64,000 nucleotides of DNA, taken from positions 1 through 64,000 of the forward strand of contig NZ_JAKMAJ010000012.1 in the NCBI RefSeq assembly GCF_022378355.1. The letters are read 5' to 3'. The position numbers were made by a program, and so were the translations under genes. Position 1 is the first letter of the stretch, and every line of letters starts with the position of its first letter. The notes beneath the pieces are model-generated. The model saw only the letters and a program-made list of their open reading frames with translations, made no database searches and had not been told where the DNA came from. Positions 14,930 through 34,090 of the stretch are shown here, piece by piece. The DNA comes from Brenneria bubanii (GTDB taxonomy: Bacteria > Pseudomonadota > Gammaproteobacteria > Enterobacterales > Enterobacteriaceae).

Positions 14930-14972
14930 CCTGCGAATTTTCCGGGTATCATATACCCGGAAAATTCGCAGG
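14930..14972. repeat. Perfect 20-bp palindrome with 3-nt loop
   Basis: CCTGCGAATTTTCCGGGTAT (14930-14949) and its exact complement at 14953-14972 are separated only by CAT. It lies directly against the IS5-type transposase remnant and may mark an insertion or recombination junction. Confidence 0.7.
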
Positions 14973-14976
14973 AAAA

Positions 14977-15140
14977 TTAACAGTACCTGAAACATCTGTC
15001 AGTTCAACGGCCAGATGCAGTTTCCTCCAGATGCGACTGCGCTCATTGCCATGTTTTCTGACTTTCCACTCACCTTCACCGAAAACTTTCAGGCCGGTGG
15101 AATCAATTACTAGATGGGCTATTTCACCCCGAATAGGGGC
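14977..15140 (-). pseudogene. IS5-family transposase fragment
   Basis: About 50 residues read HLVIDSTGLKVFGEGEWKV and then KHGNERSRIWRKLHLAVE, the central DDE-domain segment of IS5/IS903-type transposases including the first catalytic Asp in VIDSTG. Sequence on both sides is unrelated, no terminal inverted repeats are visible, and the remaining 250 or so residues are missing. It is an internal relic. Confidence 0.75.
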
Positions 15141-15157
15141 TTTAAAACAGACGGTAA

Positions 15158-16671
15158 CTGCACCAGATACCCCACCGGACAAACATCGAACTGCACCAAT
15201 GACGGGCTTTTCAGCCCTTCAGCCCTTTGGCCCTTTCCGGTTTGGCGCTGTTACCCTTAGCCTTCCTTTACCCTTTAGGCCTTTTCCCTTTCGCTGCACC
15301 AGATACAAGAATTATCCTTCGTTTCAACGCCCATAAACCTGCGCCACATAACGCCCACGCCCGTCGCCGTGGCCTAAATCCATCGCCGTCAGCGCCAGCG
15401 CCTCTTTTTTACTGAACCCCTGCGCCAGATAATGACGAATGGCATCCTGCGCCCAGGCGTAACGCAATGAATGCGGGGAATATGCGCCAGTCAAGCCGAT
15501 ACGCGACGCCTGACCATGCCAATATTTCATCGCGGATTTAAGATCAGGCTTGTCAATCAGCTTGCCATTGCGTTGTTCTGCCAAAGCCATCGCATTTCCC
15601 AGCGCTTTTCTGACTGCGCCAGCCTCCAGAACCACCGTCTCGCGGGGCCGTCCGCCTTTGGTGCCGAACACCACGGTCAGCCGGATTTCACCACGCTCCA
15701 GCGCCTGTTTCCATGTCCTAAGCGATTGCGCACACTGCACCGCTTCCTGAGAACGCAATCCCATCAACCTTGAAAGCTCCAACACCACAGCCATCCCCGC
15801 GTCTTTTGCACGAACGGTTTCCAGCACCTGCCGATAATGCTCTGCCGTGATAGCCTGCCGGGTGCCGTTGCGGGATGCGCCGGATAAGCCGAGAGATTTA
15901 TTGGACAGCCGTTCACTGGTGGCCAATCGATCACGCCCGGCCTGCTTCAGCAGACAGCGGAGCGTTGCCATTTCGTTTTGCTGGCTGCGTTTCGTTATGC
16001 CTTGTTCCAACCGTTCCCGAACGTAACTCTCAATATGCCGCGCTTTCAGTTGCTCCACCCGTCGGATCTGCACATTTTGCGCCACCACCAGACGGCCACA
16101 AAAGCGCTGCGCCAGCCTAATACGGTCGTGAACGGTTTTATGGCTGCCGCCCGCCTGCCGCGCCAGCGTTTTCATTTGCTGCTCCAGAAGACTCATTTTT
16201 ACATGTCCCCTTTTCATGATTGCCGCAAAATCCAAAACAGATACAACCTTCCCCGGCGCATAGGCCGATAGCCCCTAATTTTTTGTCGGGGCTGCGAACG
16301 ATACCTGAGCGCCGGGGCGGCAGCCGTTGAGGTGTTGCGGGGCTTCGGTGGTGCTCTCTGAGCAGCCGCCCGCTTGCGCGGGTTATCCCCCGGATCGTCC
16401 TGATCCCCCTCCGGTATCGGTTCAAGTTCTCCTGTGAGTGAACGTGGGTTGAATCACGGTGTCAGAATCCCACCGCGTGTTGGCGCAGTTGAATTGTCTG
16501 GTGCAGTCAAAAGGCGCTGGTGCGTCACTTTCCCGCTCTACGCGGTTAAAGTGACGCACTGGACTGGCGCAGTGATTAAAAATTGGAATTCTGGTGCAGG
16601 ATTGCGGTCACACGGCAGCAAAGCCGCTGTCTTTACAGGCCGCGGCCCGTCACGTTTATAGACTGGTGCAG
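15158..16671. repeat. Scattered CTGCACCAG / CTGGTGCAG boxes around a recombinase gene
   Basis: CTGCACCAG occurs at 15158-15166 and 15294-15302 (CTGCACCAA at 15191-15199) before the recombinase stop. The inverse CTGGTGCAG occurs at 16498-16506, 16591-16599 and 16663-16671, with variants at 16517-16525 and 16564-16572, beyond its start. They bracket the gene in opposite orientations. Between two of them lies GTGCGTCACTTT / AAAGTGACGCAC, a perfect 12-bp inverted repeat. Confidence 0.5.
15324..16196 (-). CDS. Integrase-domain (Integrase_1-type) tyrosine recombinase
   Basis: About 290 aa from the ATG at 16196 (MSLLEQQMKTLARQAGGSHK); an upstream ATG would give 303 aa, but AGGGGAC lies about 10 nt before 16196. 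The N-terminal half is a SAM-like DNA-binding domain (HDRIRLAQRFCGRL, HIESYVRERLEQG). The C-terminal half carries tyrosine recombinase hallmarks: Arg in LSRLMGLRSQEAVQ, the HSLRYAWAQ box, LGHGDGRGRYV and a final Tyr in VAQVYGR. I associate it with the Integrase_1 (PF12835) family found in enterobacterial islands. Its target is unknown; CTGCACCAG boxes flank the gene. A truncated copy of its 5' end lies at 38910-39035. Confidence 0.75.
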   Translation of the reverse strand: MSLLEQQMKTLARQAGGSHKTVHDRIRLAQRFCGRLVVAQNVQIRRVEQLKARHIESYVRERLEQGITKRSQQNEMATLRCLLKQAGRDRLATSERLSNKSLGLSGASRNGTRQAITAEHYRQVLETVRAKDAGMAVVLELSRLMGLRSQEAVQCAQSLRTWKQALERGEIRLTVVFGTKGGRPRETVVLEAGAVRKALGNAMALAEQRNGKLIDKPDLKSAMKYWHGQASRIGLTGAYSPHSLRYAWAQDAIRHYLAQGFSKKEALALTAMDLGHGDGRGRYVAQVYGR

Positions 16672-17652: not shown

Positions 17653-17823
17653 AATGGCAGCCTCCAGTGAGAAGTTAACTTATAACCACCACCAGAGGTT
17701 CCAATCTCAGGGTGGTGGACTGAACGGGGTTGGAACTACCGGCCTCACTGAAACCGGCGCACCTTGCGGTGCCCCCGCCCAGCCCACCATAATTTGGGTG
17801 TAGCTAAACGCGCGACATAAAAA

Positions 17824-17842
17824 AAGACGCGTTGGCGTCTCG
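17824..17842. terminator. Possible terminator hairpin
   Basis: AGACGC-GTTG-GCGTCT preceded by a run of A, which would serve as a T-run for leftward transcripts. It lies in the 17653-17913 interval, where I see otherwise only A+T-poor repeats and no gene. Confidence 0.45.
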
Positions 17843-17913
17843 TCGCCAGTGAGGTTCATCGGGGTTCCAATCCCGGCACCTGATTTTGCAGGTGCGGGTA
17901 AAAGATATCGCGA

Positions 17914-18364: not shown

Positions 18365-18982
18365 ATGTCCGTTGCCGCCCTGGCCCGCCAGCGGGTACAC
18401 CGCATGAAGCGTGGTGTACCATTTTCCATCAGCGGATTTTATTCGCTGGGAAGCCGTGCGTCGGTGCAACAGGCAATGAGTCGTCTGGTAAAAGAAGGTC
18501 TGCTGGTCCGGGTTGAGCGCGGTTTCTACTCACGGCCGAAACCGTTGAGGAACATCCCCTCTGTTAAGGTTGTTGCCAGCGCCAATGATGTTGCCGCAGC
18601 ATGGGCAAAAGAACGCGGCTACAAAATCGCCCTTCAGGGACTGGAAGCCGCTTACCGGTTGGGGCTGCAAACGCAGGCTCCGGTTAAACGCATCTACTGG
18701 TCCAACGGTCCTACGCGAGAATTCCGTGTCGGCAATGAGTTAGTACGGATCCAGCATAAATCAGCAAGCCGGTTACGTTGGCTGAACCGGCCTGAAGGAG
18801 AGTTGATGCGCGGTTTGCTGAGTCTGAATCAGGAACATACCCTCCCGGAAACGCTGAAGAATGCTTTCCATCGGCTGAGCATCCCGTCCGCTAAAGCGCG
18901 ACAGATTGCCGGAAAATTAATGAATGAGCCTGCGCTTCATGCGTGGCGCTTGCAGCTTATGACGCTGCAAAAGGCGCTCTGA
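18365..18982 (+). CDS. abiEi: AbiEi-type antitoxin / DUF6088 protein
   Basis: A 205-aa protein with an N-terminal winged helix (residues about 18-60: SISGFYSLGSRASVQQAMSR then LVRVERGFYSRPKPL), the arrangement of AbiEi and DUF6088 proteins. The C-terminal domain has GYKIALQGLEAAYRLGLQT and RIYWSNGP, also typical. It would neutralise the following nucleotidyltransferase and repress the promoter; type IV-style toxin-antitoxin, phage abortive infection. Its TGA overlaps the ATG of the next gene at 18982. A palindromic operator candidate lies upstream. Confidence 0.82.
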   Translation: MSVAALARQRVHRMKRGVPFSISGFYSLGSRASVQQAMSRLVKEGLLVRVERGFYSRPKPLRNIPSVKVVASANDVAAAWAKERGYKIALQGLEAAYRLGLQTQAPVKRIYWSNGPTREFRVGNELVRIQHKSASRLRWLNRPEGELMRGLLSLNQEHTLPETLKNAFHRLSIPSAKARQIAGKLMNEPALHAWRLQLMTLQKAL

Positions 18983-20049
18983 TGAACATTTTCGATTATT
19001 ATCGGAGCGCATCACAACGCCGCGAGCTTCAGGAAATCCTCTCTTACGCTGCACAGCAGCATCCCTCCGGGCTGGGAGCCAGCTTTCTGGAAAAGGATCT
19101 CTGGGTAACGGAGATCCTTCGGCTGCTTTTTAATAAGGATCTGCTGGGTGGTTTATCTGTCGCGTTTAAAGGCGGAACGGCGTTAAGCAAATGCTGGAAC
19201 GTGATCGAGCGCTTTTCTGAAGATATCGATCTTTCTGTTCACTGGGCAGATCTGGCGGGTCACTCAGAAGAGGAAGAACAACAGGCTTGGGAGCAAAGCA
19301 CGCGGAATAACAGCCAAAATCGTCGGTTCAGAGAGCAGCAGCAAGCTCGCTTAACAGAATGGACAAGAGCTCTGGTAGAACGGCTAAATCAACGCCTTCA
19401 GGTTTATGAAATTCCAGGCCTTGAAGCAGAAATAGAACCCGACAGCGGCGGTGAAAAAGTAGATATCTATTTTCCACGGGTGAAGGAAGATAGTATGGCT
19501 TATCAACGCGATCATATTCTGCTGGAATTTGGCGGGCGAAATCGTGGTAAACCAGCCGATCTGATGCCTGTAGTGAGCTACCTGTCCGCGATTGTAGGAA
19601 TGGATGCACTTCAGCTACCTACCGCGACCGTAAATGCTTATGACACCGGTTATATTCTTTGGGAAAAACTAACGGCGCTGCACCAGTTCTGTACGCAAAC
19701 CAGAGCACCAAACCCGGAGCGGCTGGCGCGCCACTGGTACGATGTGGATTGTCTGCTGCGTAATGATTTCGCCAGTCCGTATGAAACGCTGGAGGCAATG
19801 CATGATGTGGTTGAGATGAAGCAACGCCGCTGGTTTGTTCCGGGCGTTGATTTTACTCAGGTCACTGTCGGAAAATTGCTTCTGGTGCCTGATGACGCTA
19901 AACGGTTCGCAGCAATCTTAGGGGATCACCAGACGGCTGTTGAAGGTGGGATGTTTTTTCGTCAACCTGATGGATTTGCTGAAATTGCTAACCGTCTTCG
20001 CCATGTTCAGGATGAAATCAATTATTTTATGCGAGATTCGCGGACGTAA
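18982..20049 (+). CDS. abiEii: AbiEii-type nucleotidyltransferase toxin
   Basis: A 355-aa AbiEii-family protein. I chose the ATG at 18982 (MNIFDYYRSASQRRELQE) because it overlaps the antitoxin stop; a longer frame from 18943 lies inside the antitoxin gene. Nucleotidyltransferase motifs are present: FKGGTALSKCW followed by FSEDIDLSV, with the paired acidic residues of the DNA polymerase beta fold, and a Lys-containing C-terminal region (GYILWEKLTALHQFC). AbiEii/MenT-type toxins add nucleotides to tRNA or related targets to stop growth. The pair is complete and looks functional. Confidence 0.87.
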   Translation: MNIFDYYRSASQRRELQEILSYAAQQHPSGLGASFLEKDLWVTEILRLLFNKDLLGGLSVAFKGGTALSKCWNVIERFSEDIDLSVHWADLAGHSEEEEQQAWEQSTRNNSQNRRFREQQQARLTEWTRALVERLNQRLQVYEIPGLEAEIEPDSGGEKVDIYFPRVKEDSMAYQRDHILLEFGGRNRGKPADLMPVVSYLSAIVGMDALQLPTATVNAYDTGYILWEKLTALHQFCTQTRAPNPERLARHWYDVDCLLRNDFASPYETLEAMHDVVEMKQRRWFVPGVDFTQVTVGKLLLVPDDAKRFAAILGDHQTAVEGGMFFRQPDGFAEIANRLRHVQDEINYFMRDSRT

Positions 20050-20228
20050 CCTCTCATCTTCAGTTCCCCTGCCGTATGGCATAATCCTGCTGAATAATGC
20101 GTTTTTTATGCTTGTACTCCAGCCCAGTCGCGCTATGATTTTACGATCTATCTTCCAGTTTTATGCTTGCCGCCTTTGCCGATGGTAGAATAATGCCGGG
20201 AAGCGTCATCAGCGATTAAGGGCACGGA
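20050..20228 (+). promoter_or_regulatory. Leader of the five-gene defence-like operon
   Basis: A 179-bp non-coding interval between the AbiEii stop and the TerB-domain gene. It must carry the operon promoter if the operon is not read through from abiE. I see A+T-rich candidate -10 boxes (TAGAAT near 20187) but no clean promoter, operator or terminator. AAGGG lies about 7 nt before the start at 20229. Confidence 0.35.
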
Positions 20229-22556
20229 ATGGGCTTCTGGATATTTGTTATTGCACTGGCTGTTATCTGGTTTCTGTTTTCCAAAAAGAAAAAGTCGCCG
20301 CCCCCCAGAATAAACAGCAAAAACATCAGCCCAATAAATAATACGTCACGACAAAAATCTCTCAATAAGCCAACCAATAGCGTAGCAAGTATGCATTCTC
20401 AGGCATCCGATGATGACGAACTGGCAACCTTTACTTTCGTTAATGGGCAGACCGTTGAATACAGCACCAGCCGCGAACAGTCACGAGAAACCGCAGCCCG
20501 GCGCAATATCACGCCAGCGCGATGGGTCAAACCGGGAGAAAGCGTTACAATTCAAAATGTCGTCATTAATCACGGTAATTTTTATTTCGGCGGACAGTTA
20601 AAAACATATTCATCAGGAGAATATGGCTATCTTTATAACGATGGTTCCGACGCTTCTCTGGTTAATGATGCTTTACCCATCGAGTATATTTCACGACATT
20701 ATCAGGATGGGTCTCTGGGATACTGGCCCAGCTTTGCCACTCTCTCTCCTCGCTGTCGCGGCGCCTATCTTGACTGGCTGGCAAGCGACCGCAGCGATGC
20801 AAGCAGTCCTGTTGGTTATGTTTTTATCTATTTTTACGGTCTTGAGCGCCGCATACTGGCAGATGGCACACAAGAAGCTATTTCTGACAATGAATTCAAA
20901 GCGTTATTTGAAGAAATATCCCGCCTGAGAACCGTGTTTCAGGCGAGCGGTTCCTTCCGGCATTATGCAACACAGTTGCTGGAAATGATGATTATTCTCA
21001 GACCAACGCTCCTTTCGATAAACAGTGAAAACGAATATTTCTCGTCGAGGAGTTCATTACTATTCAGACTTAATCTGTCTACTACGGTTGATAAAGGACA
21101 ACCTGTTTCCGCCGATCTGGCACTGGCATGGCTACACTATTTTCCTGACTACACACTGCGCACGCCTGCCCGTCGATGTCATTCTGAATTTTCTGCGTTA
21201 TTCAAACAGCGCTATACACAAAAATATGGTGACGGTATTGTCGTCAAAGCCAATAAAACACGGTTGCATTTAAGCTATACACCAGCCAGCGGTACGCTCC
21301 GGGAGATCCAAGTCAAAAAACAGATGGACCTCCCCGATCCAAGCGTTTTAAAAGCACCGATTCAGAAATTGATCCCCATTGCAGAATCCTGCATCAACGC
21401 CCTGGATGCCTATAGCCGCTATCTTGGTAAAAAAGATGCATCAGGAAGCGATGTCGCCGCCATCATGCTTCTCCCCGATGAAATCCTGACCGAAGATGCA
21501 GAACACATGTTCGCTGAATTTAAACACTGGGCAGATGAGAGGATCCGTGAGAATTCAGGGCTGGCAACAGTTGCTGGTTTCTGGGCCAGACTGGATATGC
21601 CTGTGCCAGATAAGATCAATAAAAAAGAAGCCGAGCTGATGCAAAATTTCGCCAAGCGAGCAGGCTACGGCATTGCACCGGATATGCGCTATCACCTTGT
21701 CAGGCCAGAGCCAGAAGGTAATCTTGTTTTATTTCCAGAAGGGCACGCTGAATTCTACATACCATCTGCGGAATTTACGTCAGTCTCCGTGGCGCTTCGG
21801 TTGGGCGCAATGATTGCACAAATGGACAAGCGTGTGGACGTCGCTGAACAGGCTGCACTGGAGAGAACGATTGATCATAACGACACGTTGTCGCCGACTG
21901 AAAAACGCTCGCTGCACGCCTACCTTACCTGGCGACTCAATACGCCTGCAAGTCAGGCCGGTCTGAAAGGCAAAATCGAGCAACTCAGCAATAAAGAAAA
22001 GTCCACTATTGGCAACGTTATTATTAACGTCGCCTGTGCAGATGGAAAAATCGATCCGGCTGAGATTAAGCAACTGGAAAAAATTTACGCCAGCCTCGGT
22101 CTGGACAGCAGTACCGTCACCAGCGATATCCACCGCCTGTCAACCGCAGAAACAACCTCGACAGCTAGGTTACAAACCACATCAGAGACGAGCGGCACGT
22201 TTTCTCTTGATGAACGGACCCTTGCCCGTCACGAGTCCGACACAACAGACGTACGTCAGTTGCTGAGCACCATCTTTGCCGAAGATGAACCCGCAAACGA
22301 ACCACCAGCAGAGATCCCGTCACATACTGGCACGGGTCTCGATGAAGCACATCACCAGCTCTACCTGCGTTTGCTGGAAAAAGAACGCTGGGCGCGAAAC
22401 GAAGTCGCTGAGCTATGTCAGTCGCTTAATTTGATGGTGAGCGGCGCGATTGAGGCGATTAATGACTGGTCTTATGAACAGGTTGATGCCCCGGTACTTG
22501 ATGATGACGGTGATATTTACGTTGACCTAGAAATAGCACAAGAACTCAAAGGATAA
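20229..22556 (+). CDS. TerB-domain membrane-anchored protein (first gene of defence operon)
   Basis: A 775-aa protein. Residues 3-17 form one membrane segment (IFVIALAVIWFLF) followed by KKKK, so the bulk faces the cytoplasm. After a disordered linker comes a TerB_N-like domain (about 60-300, with GNFYFGG and LYNDGSDASLVNDALPI). Near residues 590-640 a TerB-type helical domain is visible (IGNVIINVACADGKIDPAEIK), with the acidic metal-binding pattern of TerB, then a TerB_C-like tail (WARNEVAELCQSLNLMVSGAIEAINDW). Such tripartite TerB proteins occur in multi-gene stress/defence clusters, not in tellurite export. The gene ends 3 nt before the ATPase start. Scaffold or membrane sensor is an inference. 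Confidence 0.75.
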   Translation: MGFWIFVIALAVIWFLFSKKKKSPPPRINSKNISPINNTSRQKSLNKPTNSVASMHSQASDDDELATFTFVNGQTVEYSTSREQSRETAARRNITPARWVKPGESVTIQNVVINHGNFYFGGQLKTYSSGEYGYLYNDGSDASLVNDALPIEYISRHYQDGSLGYWPSFATLSPRCRGAYLDWLASDRSDASSPVGYVFIYFYGLERRILADGTQEAISDNEFKALFEEISRLRTVFQASGSFRHYATQLLEMMIILRPTLLSINSENEYFSSRSSLLFRLNLSTTVDKGQPVSADLALAWLHYFPDYTLRTPARRCHSEFSALFKQRYTQKYGDGIVVKANKTRLHLSYTPASGTLREIQVKKQMDLPDPSVLKAPIQKLIPIAESCINALDAYSRYLGKKDASGSDVAAIMLLPDEILTEDAEHMFAEFKHWADERIRENSGLATVAGFWARLDMPVPDKINKKEAELMQNFAKRAGYGIAPDMRYHLVRPEPEGNLVLFPEGHAEFYIPSAEFTSVSVALRLGAMIAQMDKRVDVAEQAALERTIDHNDTLSPTEKRSLHAYLTWRLNTPASQAGLKGKIEQLSNKEKSTIGNVIINVACADGKIDPAEIKQLEKIYASLGLDSSTVTSDIHRLSTAETTSTARLQTTSETSGTFSLDERTLARHESDTTDVRQLLSTIFAEDEPANEPPAEIPSHTGTGLDEAHHQLYLRLLEKERWARNEVAELCQSLNLMVSGAIEAINDWSYEQVDAPVLDDDGDIYVDLEIAQELKG

Positions 22557-22559
22557 CTT

Positions 22560-23876
22560 ATGTCTGGCATTCGCATTCGTCTCAAAGAAAGAGACGCCAT
22601 TATTCAATCACTAAAGTCAGGCGTTACGCCTAAAATCGGCATTCAGCATATTCAGGTTGGCCGGGTCAACGAGATAAAAGCACTGTATCAGGATATTGAG
22701 CGCATCACCGATGGAGGCGCGGGATTCCGTCTGATTATCGGGGAATACGGTTCAGGTAAGACGTTCTTTTTAAGCGTTGTGCGTTCGATTGCGTTAGAGA
22801 AAAAGCTGGTAACGGTCAACGCGGATTTATCCCCGGATCGCCGTATCCACGCGACCGGCGGACAGGCGCGAAACCTCTATTCTGAGCTGATGAAAAATCT
22901 ATCCACCCGAAATAAACCAGATGGTAATGCTTTATTAAGCGTGGTTGAGCGCTTTATTACAGAAGCCAGAAAAGAAGCAGAAACGACAAACACACCGGTT
23001 CCGGCAATTATTCACCAAAAGCTCGCAGCCCTATCCGATATGGTTGGCGGTTATGATTTCGCCAAAGTCATTGAATGTTACTGGCAGGGCCATGAGCAGG
23101 ATAATGAGACGCTAAAATCGAATGCTATCCGTTGGCTGAGAGGTGAATACACGACGAAAACCGACGCACGTAACGATCTGGGTGTGCGCACAATTATCTC
23201 TGATGCATCTTTCTACGATTCGTTAAAGCTGATGAGTCTGTTTGTCCGTCACGCCGGGTATGCCGGTCTGTTGGTGAATCTGGATGAAATGGTCAATCTG
23301 TATAAGCTTAGTAATACGCAGGCCCGGGTTGCTAATTATGAACAGATACTGCGTATTCTGAATGACTGTCTACAAGGAACGGCTGAATATATCGGCTTTT
23401 TACTCGGCGGCACGCCGGAGTTCCTGTTCGATCCGCGTAAAGGGTTATATAGCTACGAAGCGCTCCAGTCACGGCTGGCGGAAAACAGCTTTGCTCAGCG
23501 AGCAGGGGTGATTGATTACTCATCCCCTTCCTTGCATTTAGCCAGCTTGACGCCGGAAGAGCTCTACATCCTGTTGAAAAACCTTCGTCACGTTTATTCC
23601 GGCGGCGATGTAGATAACTATCTGGTTCCTGATGATGCGTTGACGGCATTCTTACGCCACTGTAGCAATACCATCGGCGATGCCTATTTCCGTACGCCAC
23701 GGAACACGATTAAAGCATTTCTGGATATGCTCGCCGTGCTGGAACAAAACCCGTCCATTGAATGGTCACAGTTGATTACCGGTGTCGCTATCGCAGAGGA
23801 AAAACCCAGCGATATGGATGAGATTAGTTCGCCAGAGGATGCCGATGAGGACGGACTGACCGATTTCAGATTATGA
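22560..23876 (+). CDS. P-loop ATPase, BrxD-like (DUF2791 type)
   Basis: A 438-aa ATP-binding protein. Walker A GEYGSGKTFF lies near residue 62, Walker B GLLVNLDEMVNLYKL near residue 240, and a sensor-like GFLLGGTPEFL near residue 283. The opening RLKERDAIIQSLKSGVTPKIG and VGRVNEIKALYQDIE match BrxD/DUF2791-type ATPases that travel with Lhr-like helicases in type 2 BREX and other clusters. A cytosolic AAA+-like motor or switch is implied. AAAGGA inside the end of the previous gene serves as ribosome binding site; the stop overlaps the helicase start (ATGA). BrxD assignment is from memory of motifs and gene order. Confidence 0.75.
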   Translation: MSGIRIRLKERDAIIQSLKSGVTPKIGIQHIQVGRVNEIKALYQDIERITDGGAGFRLIIGEYGSGKTFFLSVVRSIALEKKLVTVNADLSPDRRIHATGGQARNLYSELMKNLSTRNKPDGNALLSVVERFITEARKEAETTNTPVPAIIHQKLAALSDMVGGYDFAKVIECYWQGHEQDNETLKSNAIRWLRGEYTTKTDARNDLGVRTIISDASFYDSLKLMSLFVRHAGYAGLLVNLDEMVNLYKLSNTQARVANYEQILRILNDCLQGTAEYIGFLLGGTPEFLFDPRKGLYSYEALQSRLAENSFAQRAGVIDYSSPSLHLASLTPEELYILLKNLRHVYSGGDVDNYLVPDDALTAFLRHCSNTIGDAYFRTPRNTIKAFLDMLAVLEQNPSIEWSQLITGVAIAEEKPSDMDEISSPEDADEDGLTDFRL

Positions 23877-26071
23877 TGAATGAATACCAGCGGCTGGATC
23901 CATGCATTCGGAAGTGGATATACCAGCAGGGATGGGCAGACCTCAGGGAACTGCAAAAAAAAGCCATTCCACCGATATTAGCGGGCGATCGGGATGTATT
24001 GATCAGCGCCGCTACTGCCGCTGGTAAAACTGAAGCTTTTTTCCTGCCCGCCTGTTCTGCTATCGCGGATGTTCAAGGAGGCTTTGGTATTTTATACATT
24101 AGCCCGCTTAAGGCCCTGATTAACGATCAATATCGACGGCTGGAAAGCCTCGGAGATGCGTTGGAAATGCCGATCACGCCCTGGCACGGAGATGTTGCGC
24201 AGAGCAAAAAACTAAAAGCGAAGAAAAATCCTGCCGGTATTTTGCTTATCACCCCGGAATCACTGGAAGCAATGCTGATCCGCAACGCGGGATGGTTAAA
24301 GCAGGCTTTCACTCCACTGGCTTATATCGCCATTGATGAATTCCATGCCTTCATCGGTTCTGAGCGGGGTATGCAGCTTCTTTCTCTGTTAAACCGGGTC
24401 GATAACCTCTTGGGAAGAATCAACAATCCAGTACCCAGGGTCGCACTAAGCGCAACGCTGGGAGAACTGGAACAGGTACCTTTATCTCTGCGGCCAAATC
24501 AACGTCTGCCCTGCGACATTATTACCGACAGTCAGACTCACGCTACATTAAAAGTGCAGGTAAAAGGTTATCTGGAACCGCTGGCCACCTCGGGCCAGCA
24601 ACCCCCACTGTCGGCAGAGACGCAAATCTGCCATGATATCTTTCGCTTCTGTCGCGGTGACTCCCATCTGGTGTTCGCTAATAGTCGCAAGCGGACCGAA
24701 AGCATTGCCGCTACGCTTAGCGATCTTAGTGAAATGAACATCGTTCCCAACGAGTTCTTCCCCCATCACGGCTCGCTGTCCAGAGATCTACGTGAAACGC
24801 TGGAACAGCGGCTTCAGAAAGGCAACTTACCTACCACTGCGATCTGTACGATGACGCTGGAACTGGGTATCGACATCGGCAAAGTCAGTTCTGTCGTGCA
24901 GGTTACCCCCCCCCATTCCGTTGCCAGTCTGCGCCAACGAATGGGACGTTCCGGCAGGCGCGACTCTCCTGCCGTACTGAGAATGCTGATTGCCGAACAT
25001 GAACTGACGCCAACGTCGGGCATTGTCGATCAGCTCAGGCTCCAGCTTGTTCAGTCGCTGGCCATGATCCGCTTACTTATCGGCAGCAAATGGTTTGAGC
25101 CTGCCGATACCCGGCAGATGCACTATTCCACCCTGTTCCATCAGATCCTGGCGATCATAGCACAGTGGGGAGGCGTACGTGCGGATCAGCTCTGGTCGCA
25201 GCTATGTCAACAAGGGCCATTTCAGAAAGTCAGAATCGATGATTTCAAAACGTTGTTGATGCATATGGGAGAACTCCAATTTCTGACTCAGCTATCAAGC
25301 GGCGAACTGGTACTGGGCGTGGAAGGTGAGCGTCAGGTTAATCAATACACCTTCTACGCAGTGTTCAGCACGCCGGAAGAGTTTCGTATTGTGGCGGGGA
25401 GCAAAACATTGGGCTCTATCCCCGTTGATTCTCCACTGATGCCTGACCAACATATTATTTTCGGCGGACGACGCTGGAAAGTGATCGATATCGATAGCGA
25501 TAAAAAAGTTATTTACGTCGAGGCGACAAAAGGCGGGCAGCCACCTTTATTTGGCGGGCAAGGGATGTCCATTCATGATGTCGTCCGCCAGGAAATGCTC
25601 ACCATTTATCAGGAAGGTGACTACCGCATCACCATTGGCGATCGCAAGGCCGATTTTGCCGACTCCACCGCCAGAAGCCTGTTTGATGAAGGGCTACACT
25701 GTTTTCGCAACAATAATCTGGCTTCTGAATGCTTTATTCAGCAGGGGCAGCATGTCTACATTCTTCCCTGGCAGGGCGATCAAACCGTAAACACGCTGTC
25801 GGCATTACTTATCCAGCGCGGTTTCAAGGCGGGCTCATTTGCTGGTGTGGTTGAAGTGGAAAAAACCACGGTCACAGAGATTAAACAAGCGTTAGCCTGC
25901 GCGCTTCAGGAAGGTTTGCCATCCGAATCTCGTCTCGCCGAAAGCATCGCTGAAAAGTGCCTCGAAAAATATGATGAGTATTTACCGGAAGGATTACTGA
26001 CGCAGGAGTATGGGTTACGCGCTTTTAATGTTGAACGCGTTACGGAGTGGCTGCGGGGGCATTTACATTAA
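23873..26071 (+). CDS. Lhr/BrxHI-like DEAD/DEAH-box helicase
   Basis: A 732-aa superfamily 2 helicase with all core motifs: ISAATAAGKTEAFFLPA (I), YISPLKALINDQYRR (Ia), AIDEFHAF (II), LSATLGELE (III), FANSRKRTE (IV), HHGSLSRDLR, MTLELGIDIGKV (V) and RQRMGRSGRR (VI). The C-terminal 300 residues contain a winged-helix-like and Lhr-type region. Length and motif style fit BrxHI, the helicase partnered with BrxD. It should translocate on nucleic acid. It overlaps the ATPase gene by 4 nt and is followed after 10 bp by the large helicase-nuclease. Confidence 0.85.
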   Translation: MMNEYQRLDPCIRKWIYQQGWADLRELQKKAIPPILAGDRDVLISAATAAGKTEAFFLPACSAIADVQGGFGILYISPLKALINDQYRRLESLGDALEMPITPWHGDVAQSKKLKAKKNPAGILLITPESLEAMLIRNAGWLKQAFTPLAYIAIDEFHAFIGSERGMQLLSLLNRVDNLLGRINNPVPRVALSATLGELEQVPLSLRPNQRLPCDIITDSQTHATLKVQVKGYLEPLATSGQQPPLSAETQICHDIFRFCRGDSHLVFANSRKRTESIAATLSDLSEMNIVPNEFFPHHGSLSRDLRETLEQRLQKGNLPTTAICTMTLELGIDIGKVSSVVQVTPPHSVASLRQRMGRSGRRDSPAVLRMLIAEHELTPTSGIVDQLRLQLVQSLAMIRLLIGSKWFEPADTRQMHYSTLFHQILAIIAQWGGVRADQLWSQLCQQGPFQKVRIDDFKTLLMHMGELQFLTQLSSGELVLGVEGERQVNQYTFYAVFSTPEEFRIVAGSKTLGSIPVDSPLMPDQHIIFGGRRWKVIDIDSDKKVIYVEATKGGQPPLFGGQGMSIHDVVRQEMLTIYQEGDYRITIGDRKADFADSTARSLFDEGLHCFRNNNLASECFIQQGQHVYILPWQGDQTVNTLSALLIQRGFKAGSFAGVVEVEKTTVTEIKQALACALQEGLPSESRLAESIAEKCLEKYDEYLPEGLLTQEYGLRAFNVERVTEWLRGHLH

Positions 26072-26081
26072 GGGGAAGAAA

Positions 26082-29000
26082 ATGAGAAAGAACTGGACTA
26101 TTGAGGAAGATTGTAAGCTGCTAACCCTTGTGCGTCAGCACTTTTCCGAACTGGTCAGCCATGAGCGTCTAAATGCCACGATGCCGTTTAGTCAGCAACT
26201 CCACACAGCATTTGACTCACCTGACCGCGATGCAGCAGCGCTGCTACATCGCTTCAGACTAGCTGGAATATTGGAGTTTGCCGGACGTCCGGGAGGCGAT
26301 CCCGCTAAACAGCCGTTCCGCTGCCTGATAAACAATGATTTGGCGCTATACGATTACAGTCTCACCTTTCCGACGCTCAGGAAAGCATTGCATCCAGAGA
26401 CCGTTGCAGCAGCGCTAAACTACTTCACGATTAGCAATCCGCACGAGCCACTATCCAATACTATCAATGAAATCGCAACAGCTCTGCATCTTGCCCCCAT
26501 GCAGATAGAAAAGGTGCTAATCGAAAGCGGCCAAATCACCCTCAATAACTATCGTCAATATGAACGCGTTGGCGAGAAAACGACGAATAATAACCTGAAA
26601 ACTCTCATCTCCAGCCAAACGCCAGATACGACGCTGATTGAAGAGATTAACTCCTGTCGCGCCAGGGTCTCCCAGCTTTACGACGCCCATGAACGCGATG
26701 GCGCGGAGGTTATTTTCAGCTCAGACGGCACGGGGTTCGGCAAAAGCTATGGCGTAATTCAGGGATACGTCGACTATCTGACGCGCTTCGCCCAAACCCA
26801 GAAGCCAGATTACCTGTTTCCCGATGGTGGCTTTACCAACCTGCTGTTCATGTCACCGCAAAAATCACAAATCGACCTGGCCAGCAGCCAGAAAAATAAC
26901 ATTCTGGCTGCTGGCGGTGAGTTCATTTGCGTTCTCTCCCGTAAAGATATTGCCGACCTCGACTTTATGGACTGGGCCTCTGGCCTGAAAAACCGCAACC
27001 GCTATATTCAGTGGTACGAAGGGGCGAAAGGCAGCAAATATATCGGCGGCGCTATGCGTTCGCTCAATTATCATGTCTCGCAAATCGATCGTTGTGAAGA
27101 ACAGCTAGCAAAGCTGGCGACATATAGCACCCAGGATACCCGCTACGACAGGGAAATGCTCGACGAGCAACTTAAAAACAGCCGTCACAATATCCGCGAT
27201 GCGATTCAGTCAGCCTGTAAAGCACTCTTTGGGCCGGACAGTGAAGACACCTCCATTCAAGAATATATTCGCCGCGGACTGCTTGCTCGCAGAAAACGAG
27301 AGCTTAACGCGATGCAGGGGAAACCTGCAAAAATAAGCGTACACGAAGTCTACTTCGAGCTTATCAAGCAGGTATTGCCTTTCGAAGTTTGCCAGTATCG
27401 CCCGTCGGTGCTGTTAATGACCACCAACAAGTTTGACACATCAACTTACCGCCTGACGCCTCGTCAACGAGGCGAAGGCGTGCGTTTTGAGCCCGTGGAT
27501 TTTGACCTGCTCCTTGGCGGCAAGCTGAAACCCAAAGATCCGCAGATCAGCACCGTTGCGGCAGCAGGTCACTCCGAACAGGCAGCTTACCTTCGCAATG
27601 AACATTTCAGACGCAATCCAGACTGCCCTTTTCGCCGCAAGAATATCCGCTTCACGGTGATAATCGATGAACTGCATGAAGCCTACACCCGCCTTGAAGA
27701 AACGTGCCATGTGAAACTGGTCACACAGGAAAATAACCTGGCGCACGTTATCTCCGTTGCAGGACGCATTCACAACGCGGTACTCAGCCTGGAGCGCCGA
27801 AACAAGCCTAAAGAAGCACAAACGACCTTTGAGCAAGAGATGGTCAAATTCATCGCCACTCTGCGCAATTTACTGGCAGAAAAGTGCGAACTCTCATCCG
27901 GTACAACGCTGGGATCGATACTGGAGATGTTTCGCGACCAGTTGGGGGCATTTGAAGTCAACGGCGATGCCGCCGAACGCATCATTTCAATCACCCGCAA
28001 CGTCTTCAGCTTTAACCCCAAAATGTACGTCAATGAAGAGGGGCTGAAACGCATTCGTATGCGCAACAGCGAAGGCGACATAACGCGTACCGAGTTGTAT
28101 TACGAAGTTGAAAATGATGCCAGCGACACTAACCCCACCCTGCATGATCTGTTCCAGTTAGTCTCCGTCATCCTTGCCGCCTGCTCTGAAATCACCAACC
28201 GCGACTTTAAGCGCTGGGTAAAAAATGGCGGCCAAGATAACTCCAGCAGCCAGAATACGCCTTTGGGCCAGTTTGTCGACGCAGCCAATAACGTGGCCGG
28301 CGTAGTGCGCCATATCTTCGATCGCACCACCGATGAAAACTTGTTGATTGATCATTTCTACACTTACCTGCAGCCCAAAACTGTATTCACGATGACGCCG
28401 ATAGCTGAACTCAACTACGTGAACAGGGGAGCCGAGCGCACAATTATTCTGGCGTTCGAGATGGATCTGGTACAAGAGTTGCCCGAAGTCATGCTGCTGC
28501 GTTTATTAACCGGCACGCACAATAAAGTGATTGGGCTGAGCGCCACCAGCGGTTTTAGCCACACCAAAAACGGTAACTTCAATCGTCGTTTCCTGGCGCA
28601 CTATAGCCGCGACTTTGGCTACCAGATCGTTGAACGCGAAACAGCAGATATCGATACGCTTAAGGCATTACGCGAGCTGAGGGCCCGTATCCGCAATGTC
28701 AATTTCAGGGTGTTTGATGATAGGCAGCTAAAATTGACCGATATCTGCCAGAACAGCGACACTTTTCATAAGGTGTATAACGACTTTTTCAAAGCACTAA
28801 AAGAATCGCTGGAATACGACCTGAACAATACCTACAAACGGCGTCAGTACTACCGGGAGCTGGAAGCATTATTGCTTGCCGCCTACGAGGGTAAAAACAG
28901 CCTGATTCTGTCACTTTCAGGGGCGTTTAAGCGGGCCTTTATCAGCGCCTGGCGCACGCATCAAACAGCATGGCGCAAAGAGTACGGTATGTACTCCCGG

Positions 29001-30782
29001 TGCGACGAAAAAACGGATAATAGTAAGAAACATGATCAGATCCTGACCTTTACCCCATTCAAAGGGCGTCACACTGTCCATTTGGTCTTTTTCGATTCAC
29101 CGTTGGCCAATATCGAAGATATCAGGCGCGAAACCTATATCGATAGCAGCAACACCGTACTAGTTTTTATGAGCAGCTACAAAAGCGCGGGCACCGGCCT
29201 CAACTACTTTGTTAAATACCATGACGGCGATATTAATGATACAAGTGCGCCGCGTCTGGATGTCGATTTTCAACGCCTGGTACTCATCAACTCCTCGTTT
29301 TATAGCGAAGTAAAGGACAACAGCGCTAACCTTAATACATTACCCAACTACGTCACCGTGCTTAAACACTACGCCGATGACGATATTACCGTCCACAAGC
29401 TGGCCGATTTCAGCGTTAATTTCGCCCAGGGTGAAAATTATCGCCTGCTGATGGCCGAACATGATATGAGCCTGTTCAAAGTCGTCGTGCAGGCCGTAGG
29501 TCGGGTCGAGCGCCGCGATACGCTATTGAAAACAGAAATCTTTTTACCCCGCGACGTATTCCGTAATGTCGCATTCCAGTTCGCCACCCTCAGTGAAGAC
29601 AGCGGCAACGAAGTGGTATCAGAAAGCATGTCCTTGCTTAACCACCGCCTCATGGAGGAGTGCGAAAAACTGAGTCAGAGCCAGTCATTTAGTGATGCAG
29701 AACAGCGGCATGTGTTTGAACAGGCTATCGTAGAAAATGGTCGCCGCATCGATGCGGTTCACAAACGAGTCCTGAAAACCGACTGGATAAATCAGGTACG
29801 CGTGGGCAATGTCGATTATCTCGCACTGTGTAATTTATTCCGTGATCCTGACTCCTTTACCGATCCCCAGCGCTGGCTGGAAAAACTCCAGGCTAATCCC
29901 TTGTATGCCGCCAATCGACAAATGCAATCTATCCACAATGCCCTGTTTATCGATCGCCAACAGGGTAGCCAAACTATTTTACTTTGCCACAAACGCGGCC
30001 CAGATGGACTTGCCCACGGCGATTATTCCGCTCTATCGGACTTTGCTGGCGGTGCCAGAGTATATCAGCCAGAACTCACCCTCTTCCCGCAGTACAGAAA
30101 CGATGTCGATTATACCCCCGGCAACCTGGTGGGTGAGCTGATTAGTGAATGCGACAGGATTCAGAAAACGGCATTCGAAAAATGGGTGCCCAACCCCAGG
30201 CTGGTTCCGTTGCTCAAAGGCAATGTCGGCGAATTTCTTTTTGATAAGGTGCTGAAACATTATGGTGTGCCCCCTCTTACCGACCAGCAGGTATTTGAGC
30301 GCCTTGCGCCGTTGGTCTATGAGTTTTTTGACCGCTTTATTGAAGTGGGTGACGACCTGCTCTGCATCGACGTTAAACGCTGGGCGACGCAGTTGGACGA
30401 TTTGACGCGAGCAGAAGAAACGCTTGAGAAAAGCGGCAACAAGATTCGCCAGATCCGCAATATCGCCAACCAAAAGGCGGATACTGAGGGGCAGAAACAG
30501 ATCCAGGCGACGCTGGCAGGTCGTTACGAACGTATTCGATTTATCTATCTGAACGTCGCCTACAGCCAGAACCCCAATAATCTGATGTGGCAGGATAACG
30601 TGGATCACACGATCCACTACCTTAATCTGTTGCAGACTGACTACCAGTATTATCAGCCCAAAAATCGAGAGAGCGGACGTTCTCAGGAAAGATCGAAACT
30701 GCGCACTACGCTGGACATTAACCCGATGTTACTAACCCTGCTGGGTATAGAAAGATTGCCGACTAAAGGAAAAGCGTCATGA
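26082..30782 (+). CDS. Large SF2 helicase with C-terminal PD-(D/E)XK-like nuclease
   Basis: A 1566-aa protein from the ATG at 26082, chosen over an upstream in-frame start because AAGGGGAAG lies just before it. The N-terminus (NWTIEEDCKLLTLVRQHF) looks Myb/SANT-like. Helicase motifs: GTGFGKSYG near residue 220 (I), VIIDELHEAYTR near 528 (II), IGLSATSGF near 818 (III), SSYKSAGTGLN near 1025, and VVQAVGRVERRDT near 1136 (VI). The roughly 290-residue insert between II and III recalls DinG/XPD-type enzymes, but I see no clear four-Cys iron-sulphur site. Residues about 1380-1432 have GNVGEFLFDKVL and VGDDLLCIDVKRW, the E...D...xVK layout of a PD-(D/E)XK nuclease. Such helicase-nuclease fusions include DdmD; homology to it is unverified. 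Confidence 0.7.
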   Translation: MRKNWTIEEDCKLLTLVRQHFSELVSHERLNATMPFSQQLHTAFDSPDRDAAALLHRFRLAGILEFAGRPGGDPAKQPFRCLINNDLALYDYSLTFPTLRKALHPETVAAALNYFTISNPHEPLSNTINEIATALHLAPMQIEKVLIESGQITLNNYRQYERVGEKTTNNNLKTLISSQTPDTTLIEEINSCRARVSQLYDAHERDGAEVIFSSDGTGFGKSYGVIQGYVDYLTRFAQTQKPDYLFPDGGFTNLLFMSPQKSQIDLASSQKNNILAAGGEFICVLSRKDIADLDFMDWASGLKNRNRYIQWYEGAKGSKYIGGAMRSLNYHVSQIDRCEEQLAKLATYSTQDTRYDREMLDEQLKNSRHNIRDAIQSACKALFGPDSEDTSIQEYIRRGLLARRKRELNAMQGKPAKISVHEVYFELIKQVLPFEVCQYRPSVLLMTTNKFDTSTYRLTPRQRGEGVRFEPVDFDLLLGGKLKPKDPQISTVAAAGHSEQAAYLRNEHFRRNPDCPFRRKNIRFTVIIDELHEAYTRLEETCHVKLVTQENNLAHVISVAGRIHNAVLSLERRNKPKEAQTTFEQEMVKFIATLRNLLAEKCELSSGTTLGSILEMFRDQLGAFEVNGDAAERIISITRNVFSFNPKMYVNEEGLKRIRMRNSEGDITRTELYYEVENDASDTNPTLHDLFQLVSVILAACSEITNRDFKRWVKNGGQDNSSSQNTPLGQFVDAANNVAGVVRHIFDRTTDENLLIDHFYTYLQPKTVFTMTPIAELNYVNRGAERTIILAFEMDLVQELPEVMLLRLLTGTHNKVIGLSATSGFSHTKNGNFNRRFLAHYSRDFGYQIVERETADIDTLKALRELRARIRNVNFRVFDDRQLKLTDICQNSDTFHKVYNDFFKALKESLEYDLNNTYKRRQYYRELEALLLAAYEGKNSLILSLSGAFKRAFISAWRTHQTAWRKEYGMYSRCDEKTDNSKKHDQILTFTPFKGRHTVHLVFFDSPLANIEDIRRETYIDSSNTVLVFMSSYKSAGTGLNYFVKYHDGDINDTSAPRLDVDFQRLVLINSSFYSEVKDNSANLNTLPNYVTVLKHYADDDITVHKLADFSVNFAQGENYRLLMAEHDMSLFKVVVQAVGRVERRDTLLKTEIFLPRDVFRNVAFQFATLSEDSGNEVVSESMSLLNHRLMEECEKLSQSQSFSDAEQRHVFEQAIVENGRRIDAVHKRVLKTDWINQVRVGNVDYLALCNLFRDPDSFTDPQRWLEKLQANPLYAANRQMQSIHNALFIDRQQGSQTILLCHKRGPDGLAHGDYSALSDFAGGARVYQPELTLFPQYRNDVDYTPGNLVGELISECDRIQKTAFEKWVPNPRLVPLLKGNVGEFLFDKVLKHYGVPPLTDQQVFERLAPLVYEFFDRFIEVGDDLLCIDVKRWATQLDDLTRAEETLEKSGNKIRQIRNIANQKADTEGQKQIQATLAGRYERIRFIYLNVAYSQNPNNLMWQDNVDHTIHYLNLLQTDYQYYQPKNRESGRSQERSKLRTTLDINPMLLTLLGIERLPTKGKAS

Positions 30783-33010
30783 TCCCTAATCTGAATGAGC
30801 TGACAGATACCCCGATTGCCCGCACTAATTTGATCAAGCTTGGAGAAGATCAGCTGACGACCATCCAACGTCTATTGGCTCCGGTATCTAATATATATAC
30901 GATAGACTTTATGGTTCAGCGCTTTACTAAAGAGCGAAAAGAAAAATCCGCTGATTACTATGCGCGTATCCATCAGGAGGTTAAATCCTGTGTGCGGCAG
31001 AAGCTTGGTCTGGATGCCGGGCAGGACGTAAAATATGAGCTACATCTCTTACCCAATTACCAGCACGTCTATTTTTTCCTGGCGCCTGCCGCTGCACCGA
31101 ACAGCCCGGCTCATCGGACTTTGGCAGAACGCATTGAAACGCTTTGTCAGCAGCTCACCGCTGAAAATTATGACCTGTCTCGCCTGATTCAGGGATTGTT
31201 CAGTCTGCATTTAAAAATGGTAATGCTGGAACAAGCCAATGAACGCTTTTCGGTATCACCGACCTACTTCAACTCGACGCTCTATCTCAACGCTCGCCTG
31301 AGTCAGCCCGTCACGCAGAAAAGCGGCACTGGAGTGATGGAGGCATTCGAACTCGATATTTACGCATCAGAATATAACGAACTCGCCTTTACCCTGCACA
31401 AACGAAAATTTCTGGTTGAACCAGCGGATGAGTTGCATCTCCCTCTGGAAGATACTCACGTGTGGTTTAACATCGATAATCGTCGGCTCAAAGCCCGGCG
31501 TAAACTTGATGCCCGGGATAGCAAGCTGGACTTTTTCCGTGAACGCAGCGGCTATGGCGAATGCCAGGCCTACACCTATAACGTGGTCATGAATGCTGCC
31601 TGCGAGCGGCTCAGTGTACTAGAGATCCCGCACCAGCCTATCCCATTTCAGGCCACCCACGAGGTCAATCAGTTCACTACCGACCTAGATCAACAGCTGA
31701 CTAATACGCTGTTGGTGGTTAATAACGGCATCGAATTCAGCGCCACGCAAGAAGCTTATTTCTTTGACGCATTAACCTGCCAGTTCCCCGGATATCAACT
31801 CTGGCCGCTGGCGTCGCTTATACATTCTCAGCAAACCGGCTTTTCTGAGCTGCCTGCCAATACGTCCATTCTGGTTCTCAACGCGGTAGATGAAGAACGA
31901 AGCAACAGTATCCGCCGGCAAGATAATGAATCTGTTGAGTATGGTGATTTCTATGCTGCCTTTGTCGACGCTCGGAAACAACCTGAACTCAACTGGGATA
32001 CCTACACCCAGCTTAAGCTGGATCGTTTGCAAGGATGGTTAAATCAGCAGCCGCTGCCTGTTGTCTTGCAAGGTATGAATATTGATCGCAAATTACTGGA
32101 TGCGATTGATTTTATTAATGAACGATCGGCGAACAACCCTGCTCAATACGAAATCGATCTTACGAAGCCTCACAGCCGTCTCAAGTCAGCAGTTACCTTA
32201 CTAAACAGTAAGGTACGCCGAACAAAAACCGAACTATGGTTCAAAGAGAGCTTACTCAATCAGCACCATATTCCACTGTCAGACCTGACGGACGGCCACT
32301 ATACCGCCTATGCGGTACGTAAAACGAAAGGCAATCTCCCTTTGCTTGGATATGTTGAACTGAAAGTAGAGCACGGCCAGCTTAGAGTGGTAAGTACCGG
32401 GATCGCTGAAGGTAAATTAGATTGGTTATCGGTTGATCATCCCCCACTGGGACGGCTAAAAAAAATATTCGACAAAAGCTTCTATCTCTACGACCACGCC
32501 GCAGACGTCCTGCTTACCACCTACAACAGCGCGCGCGTGCCGCGCCTGATTGGCCCTGCTCAACTTAATATCGTCGATTCATACGCTTATCAGGAGCAAG
32601 AAAAAGCGCTGACGGAGCGTAAAGGGGATAAATTTAACGGGTATACCATTACTCGCTCGGCAAAACCGGAACAAAACGTACTGCCCTATCTGATATCACC
32701 AGGCCGTTCGAAACACGACTCGCTGACCAAAGCGCAAAAGATGAAGCACCACCATATTTACCTGCAACCGCATGAGAACGGGGTGTTTGTTCTGGTGAGC
32801 GATGCTCAGCCTACAAATCCTACTATTGCACGGCCTAACCTAGTGGAAAATCTGCTGATATGGGATGCCCGGGGCAAAGCCGTAGATGTATTTAGCCACC
32901 CGTTAACTGGCGTTTACCTCAATAGCTTCACCCTGGATATGCTCAGGAGCGGCGAAAGCAGTAAGAGTTCGATTTTTACCAAGCTTGCCCGGTTGATGGT
33001 GGAGAACTAA
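30779..33010 (+). CDS. 743-aa partner protein, possibly DdmE/pPIWI-like
   Basis: The last gene of the operon, its ATG overlapping the helicase-nuclease stop. I recognise no domain with confidence. The N-terminal half mixes helices and strands. Residues about 305-380 alternate strand and loop as in a Rossmann/MID-like fold (NTLLVVNNGIEFSA, TSILVLNAVDEE). The C-terminal 270 residues have YTAYAVRKTKGNLPLLGYVE, then HHHIYLQP, VFVLVSD and a PTIARPNLVENLL ending. Length, position after a helicase-nuclease and overall strand pattern suggest an Argonaute/PIWI-like guide-binding protein such as DdmE or pPIWI_RE; this is inference only. Alternatives are a YjiT/STY4851-type or wholly new family. Confidence 0.45.
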   Translation: MIPNLNELTDTPIARTNLIKLGEDQLTTIQRLLAPVSNIYTIDFMVQRFTKERKEKSADYYARIHQEVKSCVRQKLGLDAGQDVKYELHLLPNYQHVYFFLAPAAAPNSPAHRTLAERIETLCQQLTAENYDLSRLIQGLFSLHLKMVMLEQANERFSVSPTYFNSTLYLNARLSQPVTQKSGTGVMEAFELDIYASEYNELAFTLHKRKFLVEPADELHLPLEDTHVWFNIDNRRLKARRKLDARDSKLDFFRERSGYGECQAYTYNVVMNAACERLSVLEIPHQPIPFQATHEVNQFTTDLDQQLTNTLLVVNNGIEFSATQEAYFFDALTCQFPGYQLWPLASLIHSQQTGFSELPANTSILVLNAVDEERSNSIRRQDNESVEYGDFYAAFVDARKQPELNWDTYTQLKLDRLQGWLNQQPLPVVLQGMNIDRKLLDAIDFINERSANNPAQYEIDLTKPHSRLKSAVTLLNSKVRRTKTELWFKESLLNQHHIPLSDLTDGHYTAYAVRKTKGNLPLLGYVELKVEHGQLRVVSTGIAEGKLDWLSVDHPPLGRLKKIFDKSFYLYDHAADVLLTTYNSARVPRLIGPAQLNIVDSYAYQEQEKALTERKGDKFNGYTITRSAKPEQNVLPYLISPGRSKHDSLTKAQKMKHHHIYLQPHENGVFVLVSDAQPTNPTIARPNLVENLLIWDARGKAVDVFSHPLTGVYLNSFTLDMLRSGESSKSSIFTKLARLMVEN

Positions 33011-33614: not shown

Positions 33615-34090
33615 ATGGCCCTGAATGACAGCAAAATCCGCGCAGCCAAATCCCGCGCAACATCCTACAAACGTTCCGACTCGCAAGGTCTGTACCTGAC
33701 GGTATCCGCCCGCAGCGCCAAGTTATGGTATTTCCGCTATCGCTTCGGCGGTAAAGAAACAGCCTGGCTTTTGGCCCCTACCCGCAAACTACACTGGCGG
33801 AAGCCCGCGAAAAGAGCGATGGACATCGCTCAGGTTGAAACCCGCATCTGGCGCAGTTGGTTAAGGCAATTGACGACAAAGGCGTGCATGATGTCGCCGG
33901 ACGGGTACGCCAGCATTTGACCAAAATCATGCGTCACGCCGTACAGCAGGGCGTGATTAAATATAATCCGGCTTGCGATCTGGATGGCGTCGTGACCCCG
34001 GTGGTGACCCAACATCACCCCGCCCTGCTGTTGAAACATCTGGAGGCGCTGATAATCAGCAGGCTCGGAAATGTTCGGCAGTGGCAATAA
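33615..34090 (+). pseudogene. Decayed P4-type integrase
   Basis: Starts normally at 33615 (MALNDSKIRAAKSRATSYKR), with the DUF4102 domain through YRFGGKE. The frame is then lost near 33760, where ENRLAFG-type sequence should follow; the alternative frame continues as TLAEAREK. A stretch corresponding to roughly 80-100 codons is missing before HDVAGRVRQHLTKIMRHAV, and similarity ends at about 34055, before any catalytic Arg-His-Arg-Tyr. It marks an older island integrated at the same site and now immobile. About 45% of the gene remains. Confidence 0.8.

Follow-up and report, generated by a model that had tools for sequence, protein, structure and literature searches.

Shango and ApsAB in tandem at a Brenneria bubanii locus, and apparent Shango deletion scars at related apsAB operons

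Shango is a three-gene system comprising a TerB protein, an ATPase and a helicase, with modest (10- to 100-fold) plating effects on several phages; anti-phage activity has been published for the PA14 system, which is active when cloned into PAO1 (PMC10250203). ApsAB is an antiplasmid system in which, as described by Zongo et al. (2024), ApsA is a superfamily 2 (SF2) helicase that ends in a PD-(D/E)XK nuclease and ApsB is Argonaute-like and bears a MID-like motif (Y409, K413, Q431, K489) and a C-terminal N743 (PMC11096173). Plasmid elimination is reported there for apsAB of ST38 and for two E. coli homologues; apsAB alone in MG1655 is active against a ColE1 plasmid and inactive against eight phages, and plasmid removal fully requires the ApsA helicase residues and ApsB K413, and partly requires the nuclease lysine (PMC11096173). 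Here we describe a locus at positions 20229-33010 of a 64,000-nucleotide stretch of Brenneria bubanii DNA (contig NZ_JAKMAJ010000012.1, positions 1 to 64,000; hereafter the window), whose five genes very probably represent these two known immune systems, both complete and in tandem: sngABC (anti-phage) followed by apsAB (antiplasmid). The basis for this reading lies in sequence, namely the identity of all five proteins, the intact catalytic residues and the tight spacing.

The five genes are on the same strand and cover 12,782 nt, with spacings of +3, -4, +10 and -4 nt in the list of open reading frames. These coordinates agree with an initial annotation of the locus, made from its letters alone, which had described five co-directional genes with these gaps and overlaps over 12.8 kb.

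20229-22556, + strand: sngA (gene 1), 775 amino acids (aa); Shango TerB protein; PADLOC SngA 2.1e-95; Pfam TerB_N, TerB, TerB_C
22560-23876, + strand: sngB (gene 2), 438 aa, 3-nt gap after sngA; BrxC/BrxD-superfamily ATPase; PADLOC SngB 4.7e-186, BrxD 2.5e-41
23873-26071, + strand: sngC (gene 3), 732 aa, 4-nt overlap with sngB; DEAD-box helicase; PADLOC SngC 7.2e-274, BrxHI 1.3e-114
26082-30782, + strand: apsA (gene 4), 1566 aa, 10-nt gap after sngC; SF2 helicase with C-terminal PD-(D/E)XK nuclease
30779-33010, + strand: apsB (gene 5), 743 aa, 4-nt overlap with apsA; Argonaute-like partner

The apsA start is taken as the ATG at 26082, which is preceded by AAGGGGAAGAAA and conserved in close relatives; the mechanical open reading frame begins at 26010.

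Judged by their sequences, genes 1-3 are a complete match to Shango (SngABC). The PADLOC family matches span nearly all of SngB and SngC and residues 55-774 of SngA, and the Shango families outscore their BREX (bacteriophage exclusion) counterparts by a wide distance, with 617 versus 140 bits for SngB against BrxD and 909 versus 382 bits for SngC against BrxHI. The domain content is as initially described, with Pfam TerB_N, TerB and TerB_C in gene 1, a BrxC_BrxD ATPase in gene 2, a DEAD helicase in gene 3, and helicase motifs with a PD-(D/E)XK-like C-terminus in gene 4. SngA of the window has a hydrophobic N-terminal stretch, and its N-terminus is alike in the window and at four further Shango loci (L004, L008, L016 and L021).

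Genes 4-5 are likewise, by sequence, a complete match to ApsAB, the antiplasmid pair of a helicase-nuclease and an Argonaute-like protein. All of the published ApsA motifs (GFGKS 218, DELH 532, SAT 823, QAVGRVER 1140 and DVK 1433; PMC11096173) are present in the window protein, as GFGKS 218-222, DELH 529-532, SAT 820-822, QAVGRVER 1137-1144 and, in the nuclease, D1417 and D1430-V-K1432. In ApsB, residues Y409, K413, Q431, K489 and N743 occur at exactly the published numbers. The three nuclease residues of ApsA and these five residues of ApsB are each invariant in 20 of 20 aligned sequences (window counted), for ApsB down to 25% identity. The two genes adjoin in the published order with a 4-nt overlap, and apsA is followed by apsB in 22 of 24 genome-contig loci, the remaining two being cut short by the contig end. 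ApsA and ApsB of the window are 85% and 90% identical, respectively, to the copy in an E. coli tRNA-Leu island (L006), which carries both the published ApsA motif numbering and the tRNA-Leu island site; the same numbering is found at L013, L014, L015 and L020.

These matches bear out the view that this is a defence locus and that gene 4 encodes a helicase-nuclease. The initial annotation had called gene 5 unrecognised, which is true of Pfam, PADLOC 2023 and NCBIfam 2026, where neither ApsA nor ApsB has a match, but not for the literature, where the protein is ApsB (PMC11096173). Its suggestion that gene 5 is a guide- or target-recognition subunit is very probably correct, given an Argonaute-like protein. 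The claim of a new defence system does not stand, since Shango accounts fully for genes 1-3 and ApsAB for genes 4-5; with both halves already named, a new composite system was rejected. Moreover, the Figure 8 legend of PMC11096173 states that SngABC and AbiE are also encoded on some apsAB islands, so the AbiE/Shango/apsAB arrangement is already in print, as a remark, and the five-gene arrangement is not new. A false lead is removed, in that an apparent new composite operon proves to be two published systems. An annotation lag is also evident, as the ApsAB proteins match nothing in the three databases above and are labelled 'hypothetical' in the E. coli records examined.

The two modules occur both linked and apart. 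Among 5426 complete E. coli genomes, matched over at least 80% to the window apsAB, to Shango or to the 12.8-kb unit, apsAB was found in 141, Shango in 32 (7 with an insertion sequence inside) and both contiguously in 21. Because these 21 genomes hold at least 80% of the unit in one place, the five-gene unit is not a chance assembly; the 20 listed have about 89% DNA identity, and in 3 of them an insertion sequence lies within the unit. In an order-level sample of 394 genomes, SngC was present in 31 and ApsA in 6, and the window's own genome was the only one with both. Besides it, with 5 other ApsA genomes, chance alone would give about 0.4 genomes that share the two; each module therefore occurs alone, and the sample is too small for testing an association between them. 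ApsB is rare, being found in 3 of 99 relatives (the window's own genome counted) and in 1 of 369 genomes of a class-level sample (the window's own). No viral relative was found in IMG/VR pattern scans with the small alignments A2 and A1, and ApsB matched only 2 of 72,556 PLSDB plasmid records, one of them a 1.0 Mb record and the other matched over 21% of the protein.

Among the 22 genome loci with apsA and apsB, an intact Shango adjoins on the same strand at L016 and L021, and divergently at a Pseudomonas locus (L030). At the latter, a divergent Shango (3790-9303; 31-59% identical) stands head to head with a distant apsAB (9983-15966). In E. coli L008, where no apsAB lies behind Shango, sngC is followed by a convergent cluster encoding ATP-binding and DUF7281 proteins (20891-27291), which may be Wadjet-like. 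Some E. coli apsAB copies are broken: L007 is frameshifted, L009 is truncated and others carry insertion sequences. Two E. coli matches (H48 and H71) have insertion sequences and a beta-lactamase gene inside the apsAB match, a pattern consistent with the report that insertion sequences inactivate apsAB (PMC11096173).

Most of the listed E. coli apsAB matches that appear to stand alone begin at window positions 25904-25931, within sngC rather than at apsA, and we therefore compared the regions upstream of apsA with the window. The features of the window that matter for this comparison, beyond the five genes, are the following.

18365-18982, + strand: AbiEi antitoxin-like gene, neighbour 5' of sngA and part of the inferred ancestral array; PADLOC AbiEi 1.1e-46
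18979-20049, + strand: AbiEii nucleotidyltransferase gene; PADLOC AbiEii 9.8e-189; its 3' end is kept in six scars (matches from 19787-19791, 58-63% identity)
20050-20228, + strand: sngA leader; six scar alignments extend to 20219-20232
25925-26071, + strand: retained sngC 3' end, with 74-85% matches upstream of apsA in 9 of 9 tested stand-alone loci of the clade, some extending further upstream

The comparison covered up to 6.5 kb 5' of apsA at 24 loci (4 hand-picked E. coli loci and 20 of the 24 genome loci), leaving out L025 and L027 (Photorhabdus, like L024 and L026), the incomplete L033 and L035, L008 (no apsAB) and L009 (truncated apsA). E. coli L005, L006, L007 and L009 had been picked by hand among the apsAB matches; judged by length, L010 and L023 appear to be one contig, as do L011 and L017. 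Only 234 nt are available upstream of apsA at L014 and 565 nt at L018, too little to show a leader there.

Twelve of the 24 loci match the window upstream of apsA. Three have an intact Shango (L004 E. coli, L016 Budvicia and L021 Erwinia), and nine have only a truncated 3' end of sngC (L005, L006 and L007 E. coli; L012 Yersinia; L013 Mangrovibacter; L014, a metagenome-assembled genome; L015 Citrobacter; L017 Xenorhabdus; L020 Enterobacter). The ApsAB proteins of these twelve loci form a single clade: where ApsA matches the window in one segment or nearly so, identity is 84% or higher, and the segments of L007 are 80-89% identical. At L012 and L017 the SngC protein matches are split over two frames, the remnant being frameshifted. 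At a sensitive search setting, six of the scarred loci (L005, L007, L012, L013, L015 and L020) were found to keep, at 58-63% identity, the abiEii 3' end and the sngA leader, and to resume in sngC from 25420-25422 onward with further gaps; at the same setting no sngA leader was found at L006 or L017. Such a layout would result if an AbiE-Shango-ApsAB array resembling the window's had lost some 5.2 kb of Shango, which suggests that these loci carry a deletion scar.

The scars of Yersinia, Mangrovibacter, Citrobacter, Enterobacter and E. coli L005 align with one another, with one more stretch missing from L005, and the scar that these five share is thus probably the product of one deletion event. 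The contiguous 550-nt sngC tail of L017 is different and probably reflects a second. In the 5426 E. coli genomes, the 182-nt tail of L006 is matched in 154, in 143 of them over at least 80%, with intact sngC included in these counts, and an L005-type scar is matched over at least 80% in 46, counted separately from the apsAB matches.

The apsAB genes are conserved where Shango is missing. The tree and the ratios of nonsynonymous to synonymous substitution (dN/dS) were computed for 12 intact clade copies and two outgroups, with the frameshifted L007 omitted. Among the eight intact scarred copies, apsA pairs have dN/dS values of 0.085-0.228 and apsB pairs values of 0.036-0.227 (28 pairs each), similar to those among the four Shango-linked copies, 0.117-0.167 and 0.127-0.157 (6 pairs each). 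Such pairwise values also include changes that predate the loss of Shango. L005, L013, L014, L015 and L020 form a group in the tree, however, and the ten pairs among them cover the same ranges and so bear on the period after the loss. ApsAB is therefore under continued purifying selection without Shango. Taken together, the scars suggest that AbiE-Shango-ApsAB is the ancestral arrangement within the window's ApsAB clade (ApsA at least 84% identical) and that its stand-alone loci were derived by deletion of Shango. Neither this common ancestry of stand-alone and Shango-linked apsAB nor any statement of sngC remnants at apsAB loci was found in the published texts searched, including that of PMC11096173, whose figures and supplements lay outside the scope.

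The scars provide apsAB not only with a testable history but also with a testable control region. The sngA leader contains a candidate promoter (TTGTAC-16-TATGAT, 20112-20139), read by eye and below the threshold of the scan; its TATGAT box is shared by the five scars that were aligned. A promoter scan of the leader returned one site (20167-20194), no more than in shuffled sequences. The spacing between sngC and apsA is 10-11 nt in all four of the Shango-linked loci read (window, L004, L016 and L021). The genes are probably transcribed together from the sngA leader, so that one operon would hold an arm against phages and an arm against plasmids. A more far-reaching proposal is that this joint operon under one leader was ancestral, that its modules support one another, and that the clade's stand-alone copies, those of E. 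coli included, are Shango-deleted forms in which the old leader or the sngC tail serves as control region; as a whole, we consider it doubtful.

The mode of action of the plasmid arm can be sketched by analogy with the DdmDE system. Among solved structures, the best match of the predicted ApsB structure is DdmE. By this analogy, ApsB, an Argonaute-like protein that would lack nuclease activity of its own, may hold a short guide in its MID pocket; the guided ApsB would locate plasmid DNA and load ApsA, which would then unwind and cut the DNA, as DdmD does with DdmE. Sequence searches of the Protein Data Bank (PDB) with ApsA and ApsB, by phmmer and by profile, gave nothing meaningful: no chain of DdmD or DdmE was matched, and the vimentin, GEF and ND9 rows are chance matches. 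When 20 ApsA homologues were searched against PADLOC, none matched DdmD; the sole matches were AbiEii in 2 and PtuA in 1, with best E-values of 0.0019 and 0.006. The published account likewise reports no sequence similarity of ApsAB to DdmDE and no MID motif in DdmE (PMC11096173).

Several results count against parts of the picture drawn here. The structural similarity of ApsB to DdmE is low (Foldseek template modelling score only 0.32-0.34, root-mean-square deviation (RMSD) 10-16 A), and the ApsB model is poor over residues 619-730 (predicted local distance difference test score, pLDDT, below 50). Published models of ApsB and DdmE also differ (RMSD 30.6), and ApsB is reported to be without PIWI and PAZ domains (PMC11096173). 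The model of the ApsA helicase is poor (pLDDT 57), and its best match, to DdmD, is weak (E 4.1e-3, probability 0.44). The equation of L006 with the published ST38 copy is by motif numbering, common to four other loci, and by island site rather than by accession. No promoter for a single transcript passed the scans beyond chance. In the 12 other loci compared (ApsA 31-74% identical; Photorhabdus, Pseudomonas and others), no Shango remnant was seen upstream of apsA, and for this reason the ancestry claim is limited to the window's clade. Finally, the ApsAB tree intermingles Shango-linked and scarred copies, and the scarred Yersinia copy (L012) falls outside the linked copies in spite of its shared scar. 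A shared scar on an intermingled tree points to recombination or repeated loss, and no order of events beyond the loss itself is claimed.

We consider two independent modules in one operon to be the most likely arrangement, although other explanations deserve attention. It is possible, if somewhat unlikely, that the two systems are mere neighbours in a defence island, with an accidental spacing and a private apsAB promoter inside the sngC end. Such a promoter would fit the retention of the sngC 3' end in 9 of 9 scarred loci tested, and it could lie in or near the tail at L006 and L017, where the sngA leader is missing yet apsAB is intact. However, six scars keep the leader fused to the tail, the TATGAT box being present in the five aligned, and no promoter-like site passed the scan of 25700-26150 on the + strand, before apsA.

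Alternatively, the five genes could form a composite in which Shango senses or processes invader DNA and passes it to ApsAB, such that all five together outperform the separate modules. The initial annotation had proposed something similar, with genes 1-3 as a sensor-motor module feeding genes 4-5. The tight sngC-apsA spacing in four of four linked loci, the second, head-to-head neighbourhood in Pseudomonas and the reported synergy of DdmABC and DdmDE in V. cholerae (PMC12409362) are favorable to this idea, which nevertheless appears improbable, because each module is published as active alone (PMC10250203, PMC11096173) and each is found without the other, with apsAB conserved in the absence of Shango. 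The order-level sample, in which only the window's genome has both against about 0.4 others by chance, neither shows nor excludes an association. A new five-gene system derived from type 2 BREX is scarcely credible. Its BrxD-like and BrxHI-like members (PADLOC 2.5e-41 and 1.3e-114) are outscored by SngB and SngC, gene 2 reaches only 137 bits against the NCBIfam BrxD equivalog cut-off of 350, genes 4-5 equal ApsAB, and no further BREX protein was found with Pfam, PADLOC or NCBIfam in the five genes or in the neighbouring genes that were scanned. What survives of the proposed BREX link is a distant family resemblance; a BREX derivative was rejected on grounds of membership, and the full match to two named systems refutes a novel one.

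The tandem of Shango and ApsAB lies, as initially described, behind the AbiE pair (18365-20049) in an integrase island, with a phage-type integrase gene at 12368-13627, 5' of that pair. On the minus strand, EFASI RNA, C4 antisense RNA, isrK and c4-a1b1 match at 16295-16425 and 17708-17908. An Integrase_1 gene occupies 15324-16235; from these, the island presumably has parts like those of P4-type satellites. Direct repeats at 16097-16226 and 38901-39032 (104 nt at 93% and 31 nt at 90%) suggest that part of the Integrase_1 region is repeated some 22.8 kb downstream, an arrangement resembling two islands in tandem. Just 3' of apsB, two short matches to the island integrase at about 33615-34054 (L001 4337-4776) are probably the remnant of a broken integrase gene. 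ARAGORN found no tRNA genes in the window; the related E. coli islands L004 and L008 are at tRNA-Phe.

In comparison with known systems, genes 1-3 of the window are the same three proteins as in published Shango, in the same order and with the same domain content, and in the window apsAB follows sngC at 10 nt. The similarity to type 2 BREX is more remote, SngB and SngC being distant relatives of BrxD and BrxHI. The window's apsAB is directly behind an intact Shango, whereas the tested stand-alone copies of its clade have a truncated sngC end in that place. DdmDE, known from V. cholerae and L. casei, resembles ApsAB in combining a helicase that has a C-terminal PD-(D/E)XK nuclease with an Argonaute-like partner. 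Sequence homology to DdmD and DdmE was not detected. The ApsB model is closest to DdmE, and this likeness offers a direct way to test whether ApsAB works by a guided, DdmDE-like mechanism.
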